Below are positions 3,387 to 34,120 of a stretch of DNA of 34,120 nt, piece after piece. How positions within the stretch are numbered: position 1 is the first letter of the stretch; each line of letters begins with the position of its first letter. Source of the stretch: a virus; the IMG/VR virus record IMGVR_UViG_3300012925_000012, positions 1 to 34,120 of that record, one strand, 5' to 3'. Position numbers and translations under genes: made by a program. Under the pieces are notes generated by a model. It did no database searches and had not been told where the DNA came from. It saw only the letters and a list, made by a program, of their open reading frames with translations.

Positions 3387-3755
3387 ATGTTCGCTAAGCT
3401 AGTCGCTGCTGCTGCGTTTGCCGGTATCGCTGTTACGAGCGTAGCCGCCAACGCTTCTACGAAGCCGCATCATCTGGGCTATTACCGCTCCATCGATGAG
3501 CTGACCTACGGGATCAAGCTAGTCGGCTGGGCGCCCGGCACCGAAGTCACGTTGTTCAAGGGTACTGGCGGGCCGTTCCAGCAAGTCCCCGGTGTCCGCG
3601 TCTTCAGTGGCTCAACCGTCTTCCATGTAGGTATCCGCGAGGGCACCTCGTTGCAGGTCGATATCTGGAACGGTCGTCAGCACATGTACCGAATCGATCT
3701 TACCGCCGCGTTCATCACAGACGGCTACGACCCAGCGTTCGTTAATCCTGACTAG
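3387..3755 (+). CDS. Secreted small protein with signal peptide
   Basis: 122 residues, ATG 3387, AAAGGA at 3376-3381. Residues 1-24 form a classical signal peptide: Lys at position 4, a hydrophobic core (LVAAAAFAGIAVTSVAA) and a likely cleavage after ANA. The mature 98 residues have no further membrane segment and appear beta-rich (YGIKLVGWAPGTEVTLFKG, TSLQVDIWNGRQHMYRIDL), like a small Ig-type or beta-sandwich domain. Export from the infected cell suggests an envelope role such as superinfection exclusion, but there is no direct evidence. It is the last substantial rightward gene. Confidence 0.7.
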   Translation: MFAKLVAAAAFAGIAVTSVAANASTKPHHLGYYRSIDELTYGIKLVGWAPGTEVTLFKGTGGPFQQVPGVRVFSGSTVFHVGIREGTSLQVDIWNGRQHMYRIDLTAAFITDGYDPAFVNPD

Positions 3756-22562: not shown

Positions 22563-22850
22563 TTAAGGCATCCAAGCCCATACTTGAATATAACCTTCCG
22601 GCGTAACCGTGGTGTGGTAGAACCACATAGCCGACAGCACACCAAGAAGCGGCAGAGAAGGCTTGAAATCGTTGTGACCGCCATCAACATAGAACCCGTT
22701 AACTTGGTCTGTTACGGTGTTATCGGTGCCGATGTAGCCGGCCGTACCGAACATAAATCGAAGCTCGCCGAAAGAAGATAACCCAGCGATAGACGGGTAA
22801 ATCAACGTAGCTATATACGGCGGTACATTCGTCGTGCGTGGTTTAGCCAT
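22563..22850 (-). CDS. Small uncharacterised protein between tailspike and terminase
   Basis: 95 residues, ATG 22850 sharing bases with the upstream stop (TAATG). No helix-turn-helix and few basic clusters, so it does not look like a small terminase subunit despite its position. Gly/Tyr/Phe-rich with short strands (GELRFMFGTAGYIGTDN, YFQVWAWMP-like end), so it may be a small fibre-associated or tail protein belonging to the cassette upstream. Not recognised. Confidence 0.6.
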   Translation of the reverse strand: MAKPRTTNVPPYIATLIYPSIAGLSSFGELRFMFGTAGYIGTDNTVTDQVNGFYVDGGHNDFKPSLPLLGVLSAMWFYHTTVTPEGYIQVWAWMP

Positions 22851-24646
22851 TACATCGCCTCAATTGCTCCCGCTCTCACGGTGAAAGTCCCGACTGAACA
22901 CGTACACGCCACGTCGAGGAACCACGCTGCTGTGGTAGGGGCATTGGCGATTACTTCGGCTGCTGTGGGTTGCCCCAGCACCAGTCCTGTTGCTATAGCA
23001 AACCCGTGCGCTGCGACGTTACCGGTAGCGCCTAGAGCGACGACAGTAGCGAGGCACTCAAACATAGCGTAGCTACTCGCGGCCTGTGCCACCGACGTAG
23101 CGGTAACGACAACCTGTGTATCGCCAGCTACGGTGCCCGCTGCACCAGCTCTGAGACTAAATATCAGCGTTCCGGTAGAAGACGATTGCCCCCACACGGT
23201 AATTTTGAACGTCGTACCAACAGCAACCGCGTTAGCGGGTATTCTGGCGTTGAACAGCAACGTCTCCGTAGTGCCGGACGTAACACCGCCACGATTTGTA
23301 GCAACGGCACCCACAAGACGCTGACCTAGGTTGTTGTTTACGACCTTAAGGTCGGTCGTCGCTACGGATCCTGCATCGGTGATATTAGCAGTCGTGTTGC
23401 CCATGACGTTATTATTGTTGATCATGTAGGCGCCGTACGTACCCGCGACTATGTTAATACCTGTAGCGTTACCTGAGAAGTTTTCTGTTGGCCCTATCGT
23501 GTTGCCGCTGACGATCAATTTCGTTATAGAGCCCGTTGATGCGTTGGCTTCTATGCCTCGCTGAAAACCGGAGATTCGGCAAGACTGTATATTGATATCC
23601 TGACAACCGTTTATCAGAATGCCCGCGTTAGTTGGTGAACCAAACGTGTTGTAGATGTCAACTCCGATAACATCGATACCGCCGGGTAGCGTACCGCCGG
23701 TTCCGTTGATTTCCAAGCCATGAGTACCTAGCGTGCCGGAGGTGATGCCGCCGGATATAAACGAGATACGACTCGATGCGCTAGTACCCATAATCTTGAC
23801 AGTAGAACCTCCGCCTTGATCAAAGAACGTGTTAGTAACTTTGACGGCGCTTACCGTGGCGGTTGCGTTAATCCTTAGCGAGTTCACCCCGCCGATAACA
23901 TCGCACGTGTCAATCTGTACGGCGCCGCACTGGTTAATCTCGATACACTGCCCAGTGCCGCCCGCGTTGGGAACATGGTTCAACGTGCAGTTGAGAATAG
24001 TCATGTTGATACTAGAGCCGTTGATAATAATGCCTTGGCCGTTTGTGGCCGGCGTATTAAACTGGCAATCAGAGATAGTACCCAGGTTAGCGGCGATAGC
24101 GCCAGTAAGCTGCACTCCCGCAAAATACTTCTGCATCTCGCAGCCGGTAACGTTCAGATACGCGTTGTTGTTGCTAGCCAGAATAAAGGCTCCAGCTGTC
24201 TTAGTCAAAGAGGCTGTAAAGCCTAGCTCCTCGAATGACGCGTAGTAACCTGCTACCGAGATGTTGAACATATGAGCTGTGGCGTGCGTAGTCTGCAAGA
24301 TCGAACGTCCGCGACCACAGCCTAGAAAGCGAAAACGCTTGTCGTTGTTAATAGCGATTTCACCAGAGAAGTTGTACGTCCCTGCAGGGAAGAACAGCGT
24401 AGACTCTAGCGGAGCGGTGGTTTGAATCAATGTGTTCAGCGCGGCTAGGTTATCAAAGCTTCCATCGCCTTTAAGGCCATACGCTGTAACATCAAACCAC
24501 GTGCTCAGGCCACCCATAGAGTGGACGACACCGCTTGAGTCTACGTATTTAGGATTACCGGTGCCGACGTTATCAAAATAGAAGCCATCATACCCGGCAG
24601 ACGGAGTCAGCGGGGATGCTGTCTGCGACAAATCGATTTGAGCCAT
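22850..24646 (-). CDS. Tailspike-like protein with pectate-lyase beta-helix
   Basis: 598 residues, ATG 24646 with AAGGGAG 4 nt upstream. A short adaptor (residues 1-45) precedes FDVTAYGLKGDGSFDNLAAL and LFFPAGTYNF, the pectate_lyase_3/tailspike opening. Roughly residues 85-420 are beta-helix coils rich in Asn and Gly (YLNVTGCEMQKYF, MTILNCTLNHV, VKVTNTFFDQ). Residues about 475-598 form a distal Ala/Thr/Val-rich beta domain. This architecture is that of depolymerase tailspikes that bind or degrade surface glycans; the substrate is unknown. Confidence 0.85.
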   Translation of the reverse strand: MAQIDLSQTASPLTPSAGYDGFYFDNVGTGNPKYVDSSGVVHSMGGLSTWFDVTAYGLKGDGSFDNLAALNTLIQTTAPLESTLFFPAGTYNFSGEIAINNDKRFRFLGCGRGRSILQTTHATAHMFNISVAGYYASFEELGFTASLTKTAGAFILASNNNAYLNVTGCEMQKYFAGVQLTGAIAANLGTISDCQFNTPATNGQGIIINGSSINMTILNCTLNHVPNAGGTGQCIEINQCGAVQIDTCDVIGGVNSLRINATATVSAVKVTNTFFDQGGGSTVKIMGTSASSRISFISGGITSGTLGTHGLEINGTGGTLPGGIDVIGVDIYNTFGSPTNAGILINGCQDINIQSCRISGFQRGIEANASTGSITKLIVSGNTIGPTENFSGNATGINIVAGTYGAYMINNNNVMGNTTANITDAGSVATTDLKVVNNNLGQRLVGAVATNRGGVTSGTTETLLFNARIPANAVAVGTTFKITVWGQSSSTGTLIFSLRAGAAGTVAGDTQVVVTATSVAQAASSYAMFECLATVVALGATGNVAAHGFAIATGLVLGQPTAAEVIANAPTTAAWFLDVACTCSVGTFTVRAGAIEAM

Positions 24647-24654
24647 GTTACTCC

Positions 24655-24678
24655 CTTAGCTAGGCATAGCTAGCTAAG
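24655..24678 (-). promoter_or_regulatory. Perfect 9-bp hairpin touching the tailspike ribosome site
   Basis: CTTAGCTAG (24655-24663) and CTAGCTAAG (24670-24678) with a 6-nt loop. On the leftward message the hairpin spans the stop of the 24660 gene and its 3' arm ends in CTAAG, the first bases of the AAGGGAG ribosome site for the 24646 start. It could couple or damp tailspike translation. There is no U-run, so it is not a terminator. Confidence 0.4.
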
Positions 24679-24908
24679 ATACCGTCTAGCGTAACTCGGC
24701 CGTCTATCTTGGTTTGACGTTGGATCATGCACAGTCGGTTTATAGGGACAATCACAGTCTCGGTGCTGGAGACAAAATAGAACCCATACACCGACGAGTG
24801 CGTGTCTACGTAATTCTTCGTGGCTGCATCTTGGGCTGCTGTAGGATCGAGAAGGTTAGTGATCTTCTGAGTATTCTGCAGATTAAGCCCGTTAGTTACT
24901 TTAGGCAT
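24660..24908 (-). CDS. Short fibre-base protein, paralogous to the start of the next fibre gene
   Basis: 82 residues, ATG 24908 sharing a base with the upstream stop. Residues 1-36 (VTNGLNLQNTQKITNLLDPT, then AAQDAATKNYVD) are nearly the same as residues 1-35 of the 24908-25828 product, a motif common at the base of phage fibres. The rest is a short beta domain (GFYFVSSTETVIVPINRL). It may be a separate small fibre or chaperone, or arose from a partial duplication of the larger gene's start. Confidence 0.75.
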   Translation of the reverse strand: MPKVTNGLNLQNTQKITNLLDPTAAQDAATKNYVDTHSSVYGFYFVSSTETVIVPINRLCMIQRQTKIDGRVTLDGILASYA

Positions 24909-25828
24909 TAGCCGATTACTACGATGTAGTAGAAACTGGAGCCTTGTGTGGTAGCAACAGTTACGGTTAGGCTGTTAGCATCGATCAACGTGATATCCGC
25001 AATAACTTGATCCGCGTTGTTTCCTGCGTTATACAAGTACAGCTGTGCTGTTACGTATTTGTTATTAAGGTTGTGGGTCACCGTGAGGGGCGTGCCGCCT
25101 GTAATCGCACCTAACGTAGACGTGTACTTCCTCGCCACAACAGCGGGGTCTACTCGTGTGCTCGTACCATCAGCGAGGATACCGTTACCGGCGTTAACCG
25201 CCAGAGCAACCGCGCCGCCGCCTGTGAGGCCGTTTCCGGCCGCTGAGGTCGAGACTCGGATACCAGCAGCCTGTACCTGGATAGAGCCCGGAGTCGGGTC
25301 AGCAAGGACAGAGAATGTGGTGGTCGAAGACACAGCAGACGACGTTAGACCGTTGCCGGCTGTGTAGAGCGTCCCTCCGCCTACCTTAGCCCACGCTGTG
25401 GCTGTGGTGTCTACGGTGATGGTGCCGTCGGTAGTCAGCGACCACGCGGAGTCGGCGGAGGTGCCTTCTGTGACGAAGAACGTCGCCGCGCTCTTGGTCA
25501 GCACAGCACCGGCTGCGTAGTCGGTGGGGCGAGTCATCGGAGAGCCCGATGCCACGAAAACCCACGGTCCGTTCTGTGACGTGGTCGTCTGGGCTGTCAG
25601 CAGGAAACGGTCATTCGCAGCGGCCGTAACACCGTCCACTGTGGTACCGGGTGCTGATATAGTGACGTTGGCCAGCGAAGCTGCGCGGACATGTAGATGC
25701 CAGTCTAGGCCGGTGGCCACGCTGTCAACGTAGTTCTTGCTGGCCGCATCCTGCGCGGCTGTTGGGTTAGCCAGGTTTATTATCTTTTGGCTTTGTAAGT
25801 CTAAGCCATTAGCTACTTTAGTTGCCAT
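24908..25828 (-). CDS. Tail fibre protein
   Basis: 306 residues, ATG 25828 overlapping the upstream stop by one base. Starts with the fibre-base motif (LQSQKIINLANPTAAQDAAS, then KNYVDSVATGLDWH). Then comes the widespread phage fibre segment with AANDRFLLTAQTTTSQNGPW and SADSAWSLTTDGTITVDTT, followed by Gly/Asn/Ala-rich strands, AGNGLTxxG repeats and a C-terminal VTHNLNNKYVTAQLYLYN domain. This is the common fibre architecture of actinophages and others, a receptor-binding or linker component. Confidence 0.85.
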   Translation of the reverse strand: MATKVANGLDLQSQKIINLANPTAAQDAASKNYVDSVATGLDWHLHVRAASLANVTISAPGTTVDGVTAAANDRFLLTAQTTTSQNGPWVFVASGSPMTRPTDYAAGAVLTKSAATFFVTEGTSADSAWSLTTDGTITVDTTATAWAKVGGGTLYTAGNGLTSSAVSSTTTFSVLADPTPGSIQVQAAGIRVSTSAAGNGLTGGGAVALAVNAGNGILADGTSTRVDPAVVARKYTSTLGAITGGTPLTVTHNLNNKYVTAQLYLYNAGNNADQVIADITLIDANSLTVTVATTQGSSFYYIVVIG

Positions 25829-26208
25829 CAGCTACATACCAGCTTTCCTGTTGTGGGCGCAGGAAATACTGCGTGCACGGTGTTAACGTCTATGTGATTA
25901 GCGTCGGCTATTTCGATATAGCCAGCGGGGTCAACATACGACACATTAACCAACCGGCCTATGTTGTGTACTACATACCACTCAGAAGAGGGCGATGTTT
26001 GCTCGTAGACGAAAGCGTCTGACGGCCCTGGTGGGCCTTGCGGCCCTGCTGCGGTAATCTGTATTGTGTTATCCGCCTGCTGTACCACAAGAGTCTGCGT
26101 AGTTTGTGATACCTGCGCTGTGTTGGTCGTTTGGTTGACAGACAGAGAAGCCGCGTCGTTGATGATAGTGACGGTGTTGGTTTGTTCAACAACCGTCAAA
26201 TCGGTCAT
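25828..26208 (-). CDS. Fibre protein with short collagen-like motif
   Basis: 126 residues, ATG 26208 overlapping the upstream gene as ATGA. N-terminal 45 residues are a Thr/Gln/Val beta repeat (VVEQTNTVTIINDAASLSV, VSQTTQTLVVQQADNTIQIT), then GPQGPPGP, a minimal collagen-like trimer element, and a C-terminal domain (WYVVHNIGRLVNVSYVDP) like the tip domains of phage fibres. It is probably a trimeric fibre tip or connector. Confidence 0.78.
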   Translation of the reverse strand: MTDLTVVEQTNTVTIINDAASLSVNQTTNTAQVSQTTQTLVVQQADNTIQITAAGPQGPPGPSDAFVYEQTSPSSEWYVVHNIGRLVNVSYVDPAGYIEIADANHIDVNTVHAVFPAPTTGKLVCS

Positions 26209-26570
26209 CGCGTTACTGCCGGTCTCAGGACAACTTCGCCCTCTAGCAAACGATCTACGATGTCCCCAGGGCGCTCAACTAGCATATCCCACAGCACCGC
26301 GCCGCTAAAAGTGAAAGTCGCGGTGATATCATCGTCTAACGTAAAGTTAATAACACCCGTTGAGTTCAACGCTCCGATACTCTGCCCTGCTGTCAGGGCT
26401 GAGGAATCAAACGAGAAGAACGGAGCAGTGTCGGTTACTTTGTGGCGAAACTGAAACTTGACTACAGCGCCTGTTATGTTTATTGGCACTCCGTTTGGGT
26501 CTACCCACGTAATTACTCTGTTAAAGGTAGTGCCCTGTTCTATGACTAGGTTGTACTTAGCTGCAGCCAC
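26205..26570 (-). CDS. Small beta-sandwich tail/fibre protein
   Basis: 121 residues, GTG 26570 with AAGGAG 6 nt upstream. YNLVIEQGTTFNRVITWVDP followed by VVKFQFRHKV and then a region INFTLDDDITATFTF is the pattern of small BppU-like or structural beta-sandwich proteins often found beside fibre genes. Charge is moderate; no membrane or catalytic motif. The start of this gene defines the beginning of the fibre-connector subset of the cassette. Confidence 0.7.
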   Translation of the reverse strand: MAAAKYNLVIEQGTTFNRVITWVDPNGVPINITGAVVKFQFRHKVTDTAPFFSFDSSALTAGQSIGALNSTGVINFTLDDDITATFTFSGAVLWDMLVERPGDIVDRLLEGEVVLRPAVTR

Positions 26571-26702: not shown

Positions 26703-28262
26703 TTACGGAGTTATCTGTGCGCCTGTGTCGGCCCACGTGTTGTTCGACCAGACGTTGCCGTTGCCGGAACCCCAGCCAGTCTCGGGGCCGTAGATGCCGC
26801 ACTGTGCATAAAACAGGCGTCCGTAAACGTTGTTTTCCCAGATGATGTGGTCTGCTACCGGGTACTTCTTCGGCAGCGTTCCTCCGTATGTGCAATAGGA
26901 GCCACCGTTGAACAGGTTGTTGTCGACAACCCAGTCCGAGACAACGGCGAAATCGCCGTACAAGCTCATGGCAGCCGAGCAACCAGACACAGCGCATTCT
27001 AGGTTGTTGTGCCTGACGACCGCGTTGCCTCCGCCGCCATTAGTACTAAGCGCCGTTTTATGGACGCCCGAAGCGGGGCCCAGCCCGTGAACGTAGTTAT
27101 CGTGCACGTTGACATTCGCCGGGACTGCGTTAATCATCACGCCGGTGTCCCACCCGGAGATGTCCGAGTACGAGAGCGTAAACCCACCTCCGTAACCGCC
27201 ACCGACCGCGTAGTCGTTATTTACGGTTGAGCCTTTACCTTGCCCATCGACGGTAAGATGGTCGAGCACGATGCCAGAGATTTCTAAGGTATCGGTGTTG
27301 TCCCAGATCGTAAGCTGGGTGCCAAGGAGTTTCACATTCCGCAGGGTGACGTTGCTCGCCTGGATTCTCAGCGATCCGTGATCGGTCGAGATTACCTGAT
27401 TCTCGATAGCCGTTCCCGGAGTCGTGATCGTCATCGGCCCCATGTACGGAGTCAGCGTAACGTTCGGATCTATGCCTGTGTTCGAAGCATCCGGCCAGCC
27501 CGAAGGCGGCGGCGGAGACGTCGGAGGCACTGTAGTCGGGGGAGGAGTGGTTCCAGACTGCTTAAACACAGCCTGGATGGCGACGTAGCGATGCGGCGCG
27601 GAGAATGTCCATTTCGCAACCGGTGAAGCAGTAGCCGTCGGGATCTTATCTTCTACGTTCAGGTTGGTACCGACATTCTGTCGCGAGGTAAACCCGGTGC
27701 CCGGCTTGATCGTGTTACCGCTAGAGGTGTCCATGACAGCGCCAACAGAGATGCCCCCCGCCGCGGCTGAGGCGGCCGTAGACGAGACAACGTCCTTGCC
27801 CGTGGTAGCTGTAGCCAGGTTGGACGAAACACCGTCTAGAGTATTTACGCCCGAGTATTCGCTGATAGCGAGAAAGCGGTATGTTACCGAAGTCCCGAAT
27901 GTCACGGTAACAGTGTCGCTACCGCCCGAAGTACTAGCGTAGAACAGCCCTAAACCCTGTTGTCCAGGAGCGTCGTTAATGAAGCGGGCCTGAGACCACG
28001 AGCTACCCAGCGTGTCGGCCACGCTGGCCACCAGAGTATTAGACGTGTCATAAGATACGGCCACTACTAGCAAGTTACCTGACGATGTCGTCATCCCTTT
28101 AGCGATAGAGGTGCTACCAACGGTGCTCGATGTTGACACCGACTGCACAAATAGGGGGGCAGGGCCTGCCGCGCTAGGCCTGATTGCTAGAAAGCCAAGC
28201 GCGGCAAGCAAGCCTGCTACTGCGGTAGAAATAGCAATAACTAAACGACGTCTAGCAAACAC
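26703..28262 (-). CDS. Secreted beta-helix protein with signal peptide
   Basis: 519 residues, GTG 28262 with AGGAGA 8 nt upstream. Residues 1-33 are a clear signal peptide or anchor: three Arg, then LVIAISTAVAGLLAALGFLA, then AAGPA. Residues 35-237 look like a secreted beta-sandwich (SGNLLVVAVSYD, FGTSVTYRFLAISEYSGVNT). A Pro-rich linker (TTPPPTTVPPTSPPPPSG) leads to a right-handed beta-helix (residues 257-519; GSLRIQASNVTLRNVKLLG, VNVHDNYVHGL). Bacterial-style export signals are not expected on virion tail proteins, so it is likely delivered to the host surface or medium. Function and substrate are unknown. Confidence 0.8.
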   Translation of the reverse strand: MFARRRLVIAISTAVAGLLAALGFLAIRPSAAGPAPLFVQSVSTSSTVGSTSIAKGMTTSSGNLLVVAVSYDTSNTLVASVADTLGSSWSQARFINDAPGQQGLGLFYASTSGGSDTVTVTFGTSVTYRFLAISEYSGVNTLDGVSSNLATATTGKDVVSSTAASAAAGGISVGAVMDTSSGNTIKPGTGFTSRQNVGTNLNVEDKIPTATASPVAKWTFSAPHRYVAIQAVFKQSGTTPPPTTVPPTSPPPPSGWPDASNTGIDPNVTLTPYMGPMTITTPGTAIENQVISTDHGSLRIQASNVTLRNVKLLGTQLTIWDNTDTLEISGIVLDHLTVDGQGKGSTVNNDYAVGGGYGGGFTLSYSDISGWDTGVMINAVPANVNVHDNYVHGLGPASGVHKTALSTNGGGGNAVVRHNNLECAVSGCSAAMSLYGDFAVVSDWVVDNNLFNGGSYCTYGGTLPKKYPVADHIIWENNVYGRLFYAQCGIYGPETGWGSGNGNVWSNNTWADTGAQITP

Positions 28263-30775: not shown

Positions 30776-31846
30776 TCACCTAACTACGATGTTTACGGGT
30801 ACATCGTGTTTGACGATGCTGTTTATTGCGTTGTTCTTTCCGTGGCAATTATCATACACCATCTGCAGCGGGGCAGCGCTATGCACGCCATGCCAACCGC
30901 CGAGAGCACAGTCACGATACGACACCCGAGCCGCCCCACGATAGCTGTGTGTCTCATAGTCACCCCAGCTTTTATTGCTATTAGCGGTATCGTCGAGCGC
31001 GGTAAACGTGATGTGCCCTGATCCGCCCCAACCAGAGTCTATGAGCTTAGATTGCGTTCCTCGAAGCTCGGCACGGATGCGGTTGGCAGAAAGGACACAG
31101 ACAGAATCGTTATGGGGTCCTTTAGATAAACGTAGCATGACGCCAGAAGGTACACCGTTGTTGGATTGACCAGTGTGTAGCCAGCTGTTGAAGCCGTCAA
31201 CGGTAACAGATCCTCCGTAGTCGAGTCGGATGTAGTCGCCATGAGACCCCTCTAGCTTCGTATCGCGGAACGAGTAGTTAAGGAACTGGTCTTCTTGGCT
31301 GTGTCCAGGCGTCATGCCTGACCAGAACCAAGCGCTCTTGAAGCTCGCATCGTTCCCTAGCGCTACTTGGTCGAACACAATCTCTGAGTTTAGGTTGGCG
31401 TTTGCTGAGCCGTTTAAACCTATTCCGTAGTCCCAAGAACCTAGCCACTCCACTCGATGAAACACACCGTCTTGATTAGGAGCGTTTGCGTTAGACAAGA
31501 AATAGAAGCCAGACGCATTCGGCGTCATCGACTTGACAGTGAAATTTCTGAATTGGAAATTCCGGAGTTGTCCTTTTGCCGAAACTAACGGTCCCGTGCC
31601 AGCCCACGCCAACACCGTGGATCGTTTTGCTACGCCTTCCCACCACACCCCTTGAAGCTGGCCAGTGTCAGCCGGGAGCAGCGGGGTACGTACCGTCGCT
31701 GTTCCCGTGAAACCAAACATCAAACGAGTGCGGGGGAAGGGGCCGTATCGATCCGCAAGCCATTGTGTTACGCCGGCTTGCACGGCTTGTTCGGTTGGTT
31801 CGTTGATGACGGTGTAAGGGAGACCTACATAGCCGACAGCCGCCAT
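30776..31846 (-). CDS. Minor tail/spike protein with beta-helix (tailspike-like)
   Basis: 356 residues from ATG 31846 with GAGGAG 6 nt upstream; a GTG two codons earlier sits too close to that site. The N-terminal 90 residues (VINEPTEQAVQAGVTQWLAD, FPRTRLMFGFTGTATVRTPLL) lead to a run of short Asn/Asp/Gly-rich strands (FKSAWFWSGM, FRDTKLEGSHGDYIRLDYGG) consistent with a beta-helix spike. It opens the fibre cassette and has no membrane segment. No enzymatic motif is certain. Confidence 0.75.
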   Translation of the reverse strand: MAAVGYVGLPYTVINEPTEQAVQAGVTQWLADRYGPFPRTRLMFGFTGTATVRTPLLPADTGQLQGVWWEGVAKRSTVLAWAGTGPLVSAKGQLRNFQFRNFTVKSMTPNASGFYFLSNANAPNQDGVFHRVEWLGSWDYGIGLNGSANANLNSEIVFDQVALGNDASFKSAWFWSGMTPGHSQEDQFLNYSFRDTKLEGSHGDYIRLDYGGSVTVDGFNSWLHTGQSNNGVPSGVMLRLSKGPHNDSVCVLSANRIRAELRGTQSKLIDSGWGGSGHITFTALDDTANSNKSWGDYETHSYRGAARVSYRDCALGGWHGVHSAAPLQMVYDNCHGKNNAINSIVKHDVPVNIVVR

Positions 31847-31855
31847 CTTCACTCC

Positions 31856-32008
31856 TCACAAGTCTTGTATGACAGTCACCACAGAATCAGCTCCGCGATG
31901 TAGTTCATGCATAGTGCTCTTCAAAGCTTTAGATACTTGCTCCGGTGCTGTAACGATCCAGAAGACTAGAAAGCCGATCATTAACCAGGTTAACGCTCGT
32001 TTAAGCAT
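31856..32008 (-). CDS. Single-pass membrane protein, 50 aa
   Basis: 50 residues, ATG 32008 overlapping the stop of the hydrolase by 8 nt, GGGGG 7 nt before it. Residues 4-21 are a membrane segment (RALTWLMIGFLVFWIV) and residues 22-50 a short charged helix (KALKSTMHELHRGADSVVTV). It ends at TGA 31858-31856, 10 nt before the ATG of the next gene. Function is unknown; linkage to the hydrolase suggests a membrane role. Confidence 0.6.
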   Translation of the reverse strand: MLKRALTWLMIGFLVFWIVTAPEQVSKALKSTMHELHRGADSVVTVIQDL

Positions 32009-32558
32009 ACCCTAACCCCCAAGCAACCAATCCGACATGCATCAAAAAAAGTGCGCATATGCTTACTATCATAAGGGGTCGGATAAAAAGGTTCTCGAAT
32101 TGTCCGCCAGCCTTGAACCGAAGTGGCATCCTGATGTCTCGCCAGCCTTGATACGGCCACAACAACGGCAAGCCACGAATGGTTCCGATATCACCAGCGA
32201 GATGGGTTAGGTAGCCGAGAGAAATAGCCAGCGCAATCCACCAAAACGGCGATGTCATACCTACTAGCAAGGTTACTAGAATAGAAACCGCCAACCACGC
32301 CGCTACAGTGTGCGTCAAACCTCGATGTGCGTTGCCGCCTAATCGAACACTGGCCCATCGCAAACCGAAACACACGGGGTGTCCTAGCGGGCCTAGACAC
32401 TTGGTCGCAATGGAGTTGTAGCTATCAAGGTCGGGCAGCAAAGCGGCAACAGCGGTAAGCAGCGTGAACGGCACGAGCACCGGCCACGATAATCCAGCAA
32501 CAACACCGACGCCGAAGCCTGCGAGGACTCCGGATGTGCGGTGATTCCTGCCTAGCAT
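32001..32558 (-). CDS. Membrane-bound metal-dependent hydrolase (YdjM/DUF457-like)
   Basis: 185 residues, ATG 32558 overlapping the FtsK stop by 7 nt. Four or five membrane segments carry the family's conserved polar residues: NHRTSG (4-10), ALLPDLDSY (39-47), HRGLTHT (78-84) and GYLTHLAGD (115-123). In bacteria this family is annotated as membrane-bound putative metal-dependent hydrolases; YdjM is LexA-regulated. It also occurs in phages, where the role is unclear. The pairing with an FtsK-like gene and a mini membrane protein is noted below. Confidence 0.85.
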   Translation of the reverse strand: MLGRNHRTSGVLAGFGVGVVAGLSWPVLVPFTLLTAVAALLPDLDSYNSIATKCLGPLGHPVCFGLRWASVRLGGNAHRGLTHTVAAWLAVSILVTLLVGMTSPFWWIALAISLGYLTHLAGDIGTIRGLPLLWPYQGWRDIRMPLRFKAGGQFENLFIRPLMIVSICALFLMHVGLVAWGLGYA

Positions 32559-34120
32559 TTCAACGCTACATTCCGCTTGATTTGCTCTTCAGTATACCAA
32601 ATCTTCGAGCCCCGAGGGGTACCTAACCACGTTCCGTTAGCAGCGTCACGCCACCGTCGCAGAGTTTGATACTTGACATCGACTAAGCCGATGCCACCAT
32701 CGCTGCTGCACTGCTTAAGCTCATACAACGTCTCCTGTTGAGCAGGCTCAACAGGTACAAAGGATTGTTGCACCGCTGCCTCGGGAGCTGCTAAGGCTTC
32801 CTCGCGGGCTTCGTCCATCTTGATATAGATATTCTGATAGACATCGGTGGAACGATCCCGCATCGTATACAACACACATCGACCTACTATGTCTTTCATC
32901 TTCGGGATATCGGCCTCTGAGAAGCCGGTTATCGATTCCCACGCCTCGTGTGTGAAGCGAGAAAAGACTACTACGCCATACTGTCCGCGGGCAGCAGCGC
33001 CGCCCGTAGAACCCCGGCCGCTTGAAACACCGGCAACCGATGCGTGCTGCGACACCCGGATGATGTTGATGCCGAGTGAGCGACCCTGCATCAGCATGCT
33101 TTCTAGTTGCTGATGTGCAGGTGCCTTAGCTTTATCGGTGCGCTCTTTGATATCCTGCCAGTACTCATCGATCATCACGTTAAAGGAGTTGCCCTCTTCG
33201 ATGACCAACCAAATACGCGGGAACCTCGTCGGCTCACCAAACGAGTTATCGTCGTGCTTCTTGCGCTCCTCGGCGATATCGAAGACGTGTTTAATAATCT
33301 GCGTCATCTCCGCTGCGCTGCGAGCGATGGTTACGCGGCTGATGCCATTAAAGCAGTTCAACGACTGGCGCTTAGGGTCTAACGCATAGATGTGTTCGAC
33401 ATTCTTATGTAACCCCTGAGCGATGAACCCCGCCAACATAGTTGACTTGGTTCCTCCGGTGCCTACCGACATCAGGATGTGCGGTGCCTCGGTATCAAGA
33501 TCGTTGATTACCGGTTCACCTTTGCCGTTGATACCCAGCAGCAGCTGCGAGTCACTGAGCCTCGCCGCTATCGGCTTAGCTTGCGCCCACGAGAACGTCT
33601 CCGGTGGCTCTGGCAGACGTCGCCACGTTACCGTCGGTGGGTGATCACTGAAGTGCCATGTAGCTTCGAAGTCCCATTTAAAATGACGCTCTAGAATCGA
33701 TGTGATATTTGCCTGTTTATTGGGCGCTGCATCGAATTTATCGGGCAACCGTAGATGCATCTTCTCCCCGGACACATCGTACTCGTAGTAGCCACGACTA
33801 AGATTAGGGATCACCTCCGCCAGCTTGTCAAACAAAGCATCGGATTTGATATCGTGTTCTTCATACATTTTATTTTGTACGAAAGCTATGATATACCACG
33901 AGGCAAATAAACCACCGAGAGACAGAATCGAGCCTATCGTCAATACCGGGTCCGCTGACAACCCATAAAACGCTGCACCGGCGACTACGCTGCAAAAGAA
34001 ATGGTCAGCGAAGCGTAGATACCCCGGCTTGTAGTCTCGCGGTTTGGCGGTGCCTTTTCTAGAAAGGTCCTTGTTACCGTAACTAAACCACGTTGCGTCG
34101 GTTTTGTTACTCGGCTTTCC
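32552..34120 (-). CDS. FtsK/SpoIIIE-like DNA translocase (5' end outside window)
   Basis: At least 522 residues; the frame is open to the right edge with no stop, so an internal TTG at 33961 is not the start. Residues 44-56 and 61-83 of the visible part are two membrane segments (HFFCSVVAGAAFYGL; TIGSILSLGGLFASWYIIAF). The ATPase follows: GTGGTKST (Walker A, 220-227), RIWLVIEE (Walker B, 302-309) and SLGINIIRVSQHAS, the FtsK-type sensor. The C-terminus (KYQTLRRWRD, about 482-522) has a helix-turn-helix. FtsK family proteins pump double-stranded DNA. The role in a phage is open. Confidence 0.85.
   Translation of the reverse strand, partial: GKPSNKTDATWFSYGNKDLSRKGTAKPRDYKPGYLRFADHFFCSVVAGAAFYGLSADPVLTIGSILSLGGLFASWYIIAFVQNKMYEEHDIKSDALFDKLAEVIPNLSRGYYEYDVSGEKMHLRLPDKFDAAPNKQANITSILERHFKWDFEATWHFSDHPPTVTWRRLPEPPETFSWAQAKPIAARLSDSQLLLGINGKGEPVINDLDTEAPHILMSVGTGGTKSTMLAGFIAQGLHKNVEHIYALDPKRQSLNCFNGISRVTIARSAAEMTQIIKHVFDIAEERKKHDDNSFGEPTRFPRIWLVIEEGNSFNVMIDEYWQDIKERTDKAKAPAHQQLESMLMQGRSLGINIIRVSQHASVAGVSSGRGSTGGAAARGQYGVVVFSRFTHEAWESITGFSEADIPKMKDIVGRCVLYTMRDRSTDVYQNIYIKMDEAREEALAAPEAAVQQSFVPVEPAQQETLYELKQCSSDGGIGLVDVKYQTLRRWRDAANGTWLGTPRGSKIWYTEEQIKRNVALKC

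Follow-up and report, generated by a model that had tools for sequence, protein, structure and literature searches.

The minus strand of the window (the whole stretch of DNA analysed here, a 34,120-base viral contig of a soil-type phage) encodes in its tail fibre cassette a 519-residue protein in which a predicted signal peptide is followed by a two-lobed beta-sandwich, a Pro/Thr-rich linker and a right-handed parallel beta-helix. Our preferred reading, tentative and with a probability of about 0.45, is that this protein is a relative of the phage's own tail spikes which the host exports late in infection. It looks like a fibre-type construction that was given a signal peptide, and related signal-bearing proteins found at similar places in many uncultured phages suggest a recurring, unstudied strategy that operates outside the cell.

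A conserved gene inside the fibre cassette

The window encodes an HK97-type portal and capsid, TerL, a tape-measure-like protein with an SLT domain and two lysis-type enzymes. An actinobacterium is the probable host, since the TerL of the window is closest (~50%) to those of actinophages and Mycobacterium abscessus prophages. The relevant part of the fibre cassette contains the following features:

30776-31852, minus strand: 358-aa protein without a family match, in the same cassette and 86% conserved in the related contig L011
28273-30771, minus strand: 832-aa pectate-lyase-like tail fibre or spike (Pfam Beta_helix and Pect-lyase_RHGA_epim), without a signal segment
28270-28274, minus strand: Shine-Dalgarno sequence AGGAG, 7 nt before the GTG start codon and sharing bases with the stop codon of the fibre gene upstream
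26703-28262, minus strand: gene of the predicted exported beta-helix protein (519 aa, GTG start), supported by its open frame, Shine-Dalgarno sequence, dN/dS and synteny
26205-26570, minus strand: downstream neighbour resembling L-shaped tail fibre assembly proteins (phrog_1084, phrog_3304, weak LtfC)

The 519-residue open reading frame of the original prediction was confirmed, though on the minus strand, where it starts with the GTG codon at 28262, is preceded by a ribosome-binding sequence and is under purifying selection; a plus-strand reading of 26703-28262 was ruled out by stops throughout. Because the AGGAG overlaps the stop codon of the 832-aa fibre gene, which ends 10 nt before our gene, the latter is tightly packed behind it. 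With this pectate-lyase-like fibre upstream and the assembly-like gene downstream, the gene sits inside a phage fibre cassette, as had been proposed.

We found a syntenic orthologue, 88% identical in its mature part, in IMGVR_UViG_3300048086_000001 (L011:4930-6537). It stands behind matching FtsK-like, YdjM-like and 356-aa genes and 3.5 kb before TerL, its start codon is preceded by GAGGAG, and the 832-aa fibre gene is absent at the equivalent place. Comparing both orthologues gave a dN/dS of ~0.1 for the whole gene and of ~0.08 for the mature part, a strong purifying selection similar in range to that on TerL and neighbouring genes.

Three further observations concern the surroundings of the gene. 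First, the FtsK/SpoIIIE-like ATPase and the YdjM-like membrane protein (32001-33961) that precede the fibre cassette are conserved in the related phage. Second, the fibre genes between the exported protein and TerL are entirely different in both phages (window 22563-26570, L011:6549-9981), while the genes on both flanks of this region are ~85-90% identical in protein sequence. Third, residues 229-832 of the 832-aa fibre are 82% identical to L008:7701-9812, on a 135-kb viral contig, with differing N-termini that mark a sharp module swap.

An export-type N-terminus kept despite divergence

The protein can be divided into four parts:

28167-28262, minus strand: predicted signal peptide, residues 1-32, called by a hydropathy and charge rule and conserved as a property in the orthologue
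27555-28157, minus strand: two-lobed beta-sandwich, residues 36-236 (model mbcc660484d4b), with signal-less phage relatives in L082, L111 and L133
27501-27554, minus strand: Pro/Thr-rich linker, residues 237-254, defined by sequence and alignment
26706-27500, minus strand: right-handed parallel beta-helix, residues 255-519 (model ma737c1618481, VIA-align, family profile)

Residues 1-32 (MFARRRLVIAISTAVAGLLAALGFLAIRPSAA) comprise an n-region rich in Arg, a hydrophobic core of 20 residues (KD 2.41 over 12 residues) and a candidate cleavage site between S-A-A and G, and AlphaFold2 places a helix at residues 2-25. All elements of the full bacterial signal peptide initially described were thereby recovered by rule. 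No other gene of the fibre cassette has such an N-terminus. Outside the cassette and on the opposite strand, a small 122-aa protein (3387-3755, plus strand) also bears a clear signal peptide; these two are the window genes in which a single N-terminal hydrophobic segment precedes an otherwise soluble protein.

Signal segments were called by a rule combining hydropathy, charge and cleavage site, which calls a signal in 18 of 510 (3.5%) other long viral ORFs and errs both ways, as it misses the L011 orthologue and as L123 and L125 look like false positives. Among non-redundant family members, the rule detected a signal segment in 40 of 57 viral and 49 of 74 bacterial proteins.

The N-terminus was also compared with that of the L011 orthologue. 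The first 33 residues share only 30% amino acid and 44% nucleotide identity (dN 0.93, saturated), against 87-88% amino acid identity for the mature domains, and yet both proteins have a strong hydrophobic core. In neutral simulations run to equal divergence, a core was kept in 275 of 3000 cases (9%), and one as strong as that of L011 in 3 of 3000 (0.1%). Thus, an export-type N-terminus and its start were kept at 30% identity, which is the pattern expected of a functional signal peptide and, in this one orthologue, of a signal maintained by selection. Together with the signal segments found family-wide in phages and bacteria, these data agree with the initial proposal that the product leaves the cytoplasm, and we regard its export as well supported by sequence.

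Behind the core, candidate cleavage sites are found after SAA (before G) in the window protein and after ARA (before S) in the orthologue. We propose a cleavage after SAA; alternatively, the segment might be an uncleaved anchor. The sequence RRRLV resembles a twin-arginine pattern, but Tat export was rejected and Sec is preferred since the orthologue lacks this pattern. Cysteine pairs were likewise dismissed as separate evidence of export: viral copies with and without a signal are equally rich in cysteine, so that cysteine content adds nothing of its own in favour of an oxidising compartment.

A phage-type beta-sandwich in front of a beta-helix

The beta-helix was modelled by AlphaFold2 with a pLDDT mostly above 90 and matched beta-helix lyases, hydrolases, epimerases and tailspikes with VIA-align Z scores of ~19-21.5, which confirms the right-handed beta-helix expected at the outset. 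It displays the start motif P..NTG of its family, the invariant H401 and four cysteines (423, 428, 457 and 488). The best fold matches were alginate lyases and C5-epimerases (6kfn, AlgE4/AlgE6 and the PL6 enzyme BcAlyPL6; Z ~20-21.5), a likeness seen at the level of the fold, and BcAlyPL6 also gave a weak sequence match to the family profile (E 4e-5). The tailspike depolymerases Sf6, CBA120 TSP2 and Dettilon gp208 resemble our protein in fold (Z 19-20.6) and in having fibre genes as neighbours, but they are virion proteins without a signal peptide and share an identity of only 7-13% with it. These matches settle the fold and not the function; many unrelated functions have such a fold.

The protein falls in no Pfam or NCBIfam family, among candidates such as the lyase, epimerase and hydrolase families PL6, PL31, AlgE, GH28 and GH87. 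Within its own family, the His of an HxDG motif (H401) is found in 97% of members and the Asp in 74%, which leaves H401 as the one almost invariant polar candidate for a catalytic residue and the Asp as a possible active-site residue. The window protein and its orthologue carry HKTA instead, keeping the His but replacing the Asp by Thr, and about a quarter of the family likewise lacks the Asp. In this pair, cleavage may therefore be lost and binding alone remain.

Modelled alone, residues 36-236 fold as an all-beta, two-lobed structure (mean pLDDT 73), although this part has low confidence in the full-length model. The predicted beta-sandwich and Pro-rich linker were thus both recovered, the linker being longer in the L011 orthologue. 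The description of the sandwich as extracytoplasmic in type had to be abandoned, since its nearest relatives are signal-less phage proteins, which makes it a phage appendage-type domain. In L082 and L111, these relatives are separate signal-less genes adjoining beta-helix genes, with 20-30% identity; the single-sequence search taken by itself is suggestive only (E 0.015). In L133, the relative forms the start of a 1091-aa protein and was reached by further homology to the L082 copy.

A family common to uncultured phages and soil bacteria

By sequence, the window protein has no match in Pfam, NCBIfam, PHROGs or PDB. Neither the full-length protein nor the helix domain alone found a relative in 50,697 phage records, and neither did three other viral family members and one signal-less helix, whereas a control search with TerL matched 1,890 of these records. 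Hence, with no close library model and no match among deposited phage genomes, annotation misses this gene family. Single-sequence scans of viral and genome contigs found no relatives, and a seven-sequence alignment was too diverged for scanning. The relatives were reached via plasmid-borne rhizobial beta-helix proteins and then with a three-sequence alignment, which revealed 52 bacterial loci and 62 uncultivated viral contigs; a family profile search collected 147 ORFs, with the window protein at E 2.5e-80.

The bacterial members are annotated as uncharacterised "right-handed parallel beta-helix repeat-containing protein" and come from Rhizobium tibeticum, Myxococcus, Nocardioides and Pseudonocardia, among others. 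They align with the helix over its full length (~26-39% identity), carry the signature P..NTG...H.DG and resemble the window protein in their mostly secreted or lipoprotein-type N-termini and almost invariant His. They differ in being chromosomal or plasmid copies, whereas the window copy is a phage gene with a phage-type sandwich in front and HKTA instead of HxDG.

Two other arrangements were observed among viral members. Tandem pairs of family genes occur at L069:6577-8771, L073:3725-5970 and L084:7329-9685, both copies being signal-bearing in L069 and L084. A second architecture (L076, L086, L088, L093, L118, L119 and L124) consists of a signal, a short segment with a cysteine pair, often NCQLL...C and helical in appearance, and a beta-helix.

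We then considered the genes around the viral copies. Of the 13 phages inspected, 9 have the gene behind tail-fibre, phrog_5313 or endolysin genes: its start is overlapped by tail-fibre or spike genes in L068 and L078 and, over 4 nt, by an endolysin gene in L096, and a large phrog_5313 gene lies 2-5 kb upstream in L079, L080, L081, L085, L093 and L095. In L070, L074, L075 and L076, no fibre, phrog_5313 or endolysin match was found ahead of the gene. TerL adjoins the family gene or is one gene away in L074, L096 and L118, and where TerL or a portal gene was mapped, 12 of 16 signal-bearing copies run in the same direction as it; on their own, the Pfam models for terminase and portal left many contigs without a match, and phrog_2 located more. 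This neighbourhood and strand point to a late expression. As a side observation, the TerL frame of the L096 contig (IMGVR_UViG_3300035170_000023:39014-40921) contains five in-frame TGA codons, suggesting a TGA-recoded phage.

A possible role outside the infected cell

We propose that export of a tail-spike relative would work in three steps. First, the signal peptide would very probably direct the protein late in infection to the general secretion pathway of the host, from which it would be released or stay tethered to the envelope. Second, once outside the cytoplasm, the beta-helix would probably bind or cut a host envelope or matrix glycan of the type recognised by the co-encoded fibres, as we infer from its fold and its neighbours. 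Third, and more speculatively, the glycan receptor might be stripped or masked on the infected cell, on its debris or on neighbouring cells, so that progeny might not be lost to re-adsorption and rival phages might be kept out; progeny release might also benefit. Of the roles first suggested, the protein may thus act as a free depolymerase, a receptor modifier or a superinfection block. Two features weigh against this account: the sandwich type occurs in signal-less phage appendage-type genes, which would suit a component of the virion as well, and with HKTA in place of HxDG the protein may no longer cut.

The depolymerase halos that surround plaques are generally ascribed to excess tailspike freed at lysis. 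A wider claim, which we consider doubtful, is that many uncultured phages of soil bacteria put a signal peptide on a beta-helix that is also used in virion-type fibres, and secrete soluble or tethered copies of this tail-spike-type module before lysis ("exported spikes"), thereby clearing or masking receptors on the infected cell, debris and neighbours. If this were true, some phages would devote a gene specifically to an action outside the cell ahead of lysis. Such a gene would be the counterpart, in viruses of bacteria, of receptor-destroying enzymes, and could bear on superinfection, on the spread in soil biofilms and on carbon turnover.

Exported phage proteins acting at surfaces are known; what is new here is a predicted one built from a tailspike-type module in an uncharacterised family. 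The Ltp lipoprotein of phage TP-J34 is exported and acts at the host surface, and its secreted form still blocks phages (PMC3952083), but it is a small lipoprotein of the lysogeny module, without a beta-helix and with a different target. Lys44 is a Sec-exported phage endolysin that acts at the envelope (PMC6116005). ORF22 of phage P1312 shares with our protein an actinophage origin, a predicted signal peptide and a carbohydrate-related domain, and a wall location was proposed for it; it differs by its metallophosphatase and CBM4_9 domains in place of a beta-helix, and its function is only proposed (PMC4569894). XepA of prophage PBSX is an exported lytic-cassette protein known outside the cell and made of beta-sandwich domains, but it has no beta-helix and was rejected as a relative of our sandwich, with a fold match (Z 7.5) within the usual background. 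Our searches of the openly accessible literature turned up no description of a beta-helix protein with a signal peptide among phage fibre genes.

Alternative explanations

The gene could instead be an auxiliary gene of bacterial origin, whose secreted carbohydrate-active product would let the host use or modify environmental polysaccharide, to the benefit of an infected or lysogenic host and with no part in the interplay between phage and receptor. Family members indeed abound in soil and plant-associated actinobacteria, rhizobia and myxobacteria, where they often bear a signal peptide or a lipobox. Copies from viruses and bacteria are intermixed on the tree, where well-supported branches force at least 10 label changes, and the signal state switches at least 8 times among viral rows; both counts are rough because this quick tree is weakly supported in places. 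We nevertheless consider this explanation unlikely, since the window and most of the relatives inspected have the gene in a late tail-fibre or lysis region, co-directional with packaging or portal genes and in some cases coupled to fibre genes, while its sandwich is an appendage-type domain and no integrase was found in the window.

The protein might also belong to the virion, being either exported and joined to tails afterwards, at the cell surface or during lysis, or inserted with its hydrophobic N-terminus buried in the particle. Its location within the fibre cassette and the signal-less phage relatives of its sandwich would fit such a role, and so would the helices of the same family that stand behind signal-less, virion-type N-termini: a beta-rich-looking one in L121, whose gene is close behind the portal gene, collagen-like repeats in L108 and other fibre-like starts in L098 and L107. 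These signal-less relatives indicate that the module moves between virion-type and exported proteins. However, tail fibres usually carry a virion-attachment part at their N-terminus, and instead of this hallmark of fibres and tailspikes assembled in the cytoplasm we found a predicted signal peptide whose diverging sequence is unlike an attachment site. As, to our knowledge, tailed phages have no established route in which export precedes assembly, we hold a virion protein to be quite unlikely.

We give a slim chance to a membrane-anchored superinfection-exclusion factor, in which an uncleaved segment would display the sandwich and the helix and block incoming tails. The 20-residue core is long enough to span a membrane and Ltp offers a phage-encoded, surface-exposed precedent, but plausible cleavage sites lie behind the core in both orthologues, the window protein has no lipobox and its gene occupies a probable late operon, not a lysogeny module as that of Ltp.

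Finally, a misassigned start, with the protein made in the cytoplasm from a later codon, is highly improbable despite the signal-less relatives in the family, since the Shine-Dalgarno sequence and start are kept before the signal in two orthologues, the first ATG is residue 57, within the conserved sandwich, and the few GTG codons after the signal lack any preceding Shine-Dalgarno sequence. Homologues without a signal segment and with a later start had been named as evidence against the original prediction: the signal-less forms do exist (L098, L107, L108 and L121), but the orthologue starts before its signal and no later start is indicated. The comparison of homologues for a conserved signal peptide turned out positive, both in the L011 orthologue and in the 40 signal-bearing viral copies.
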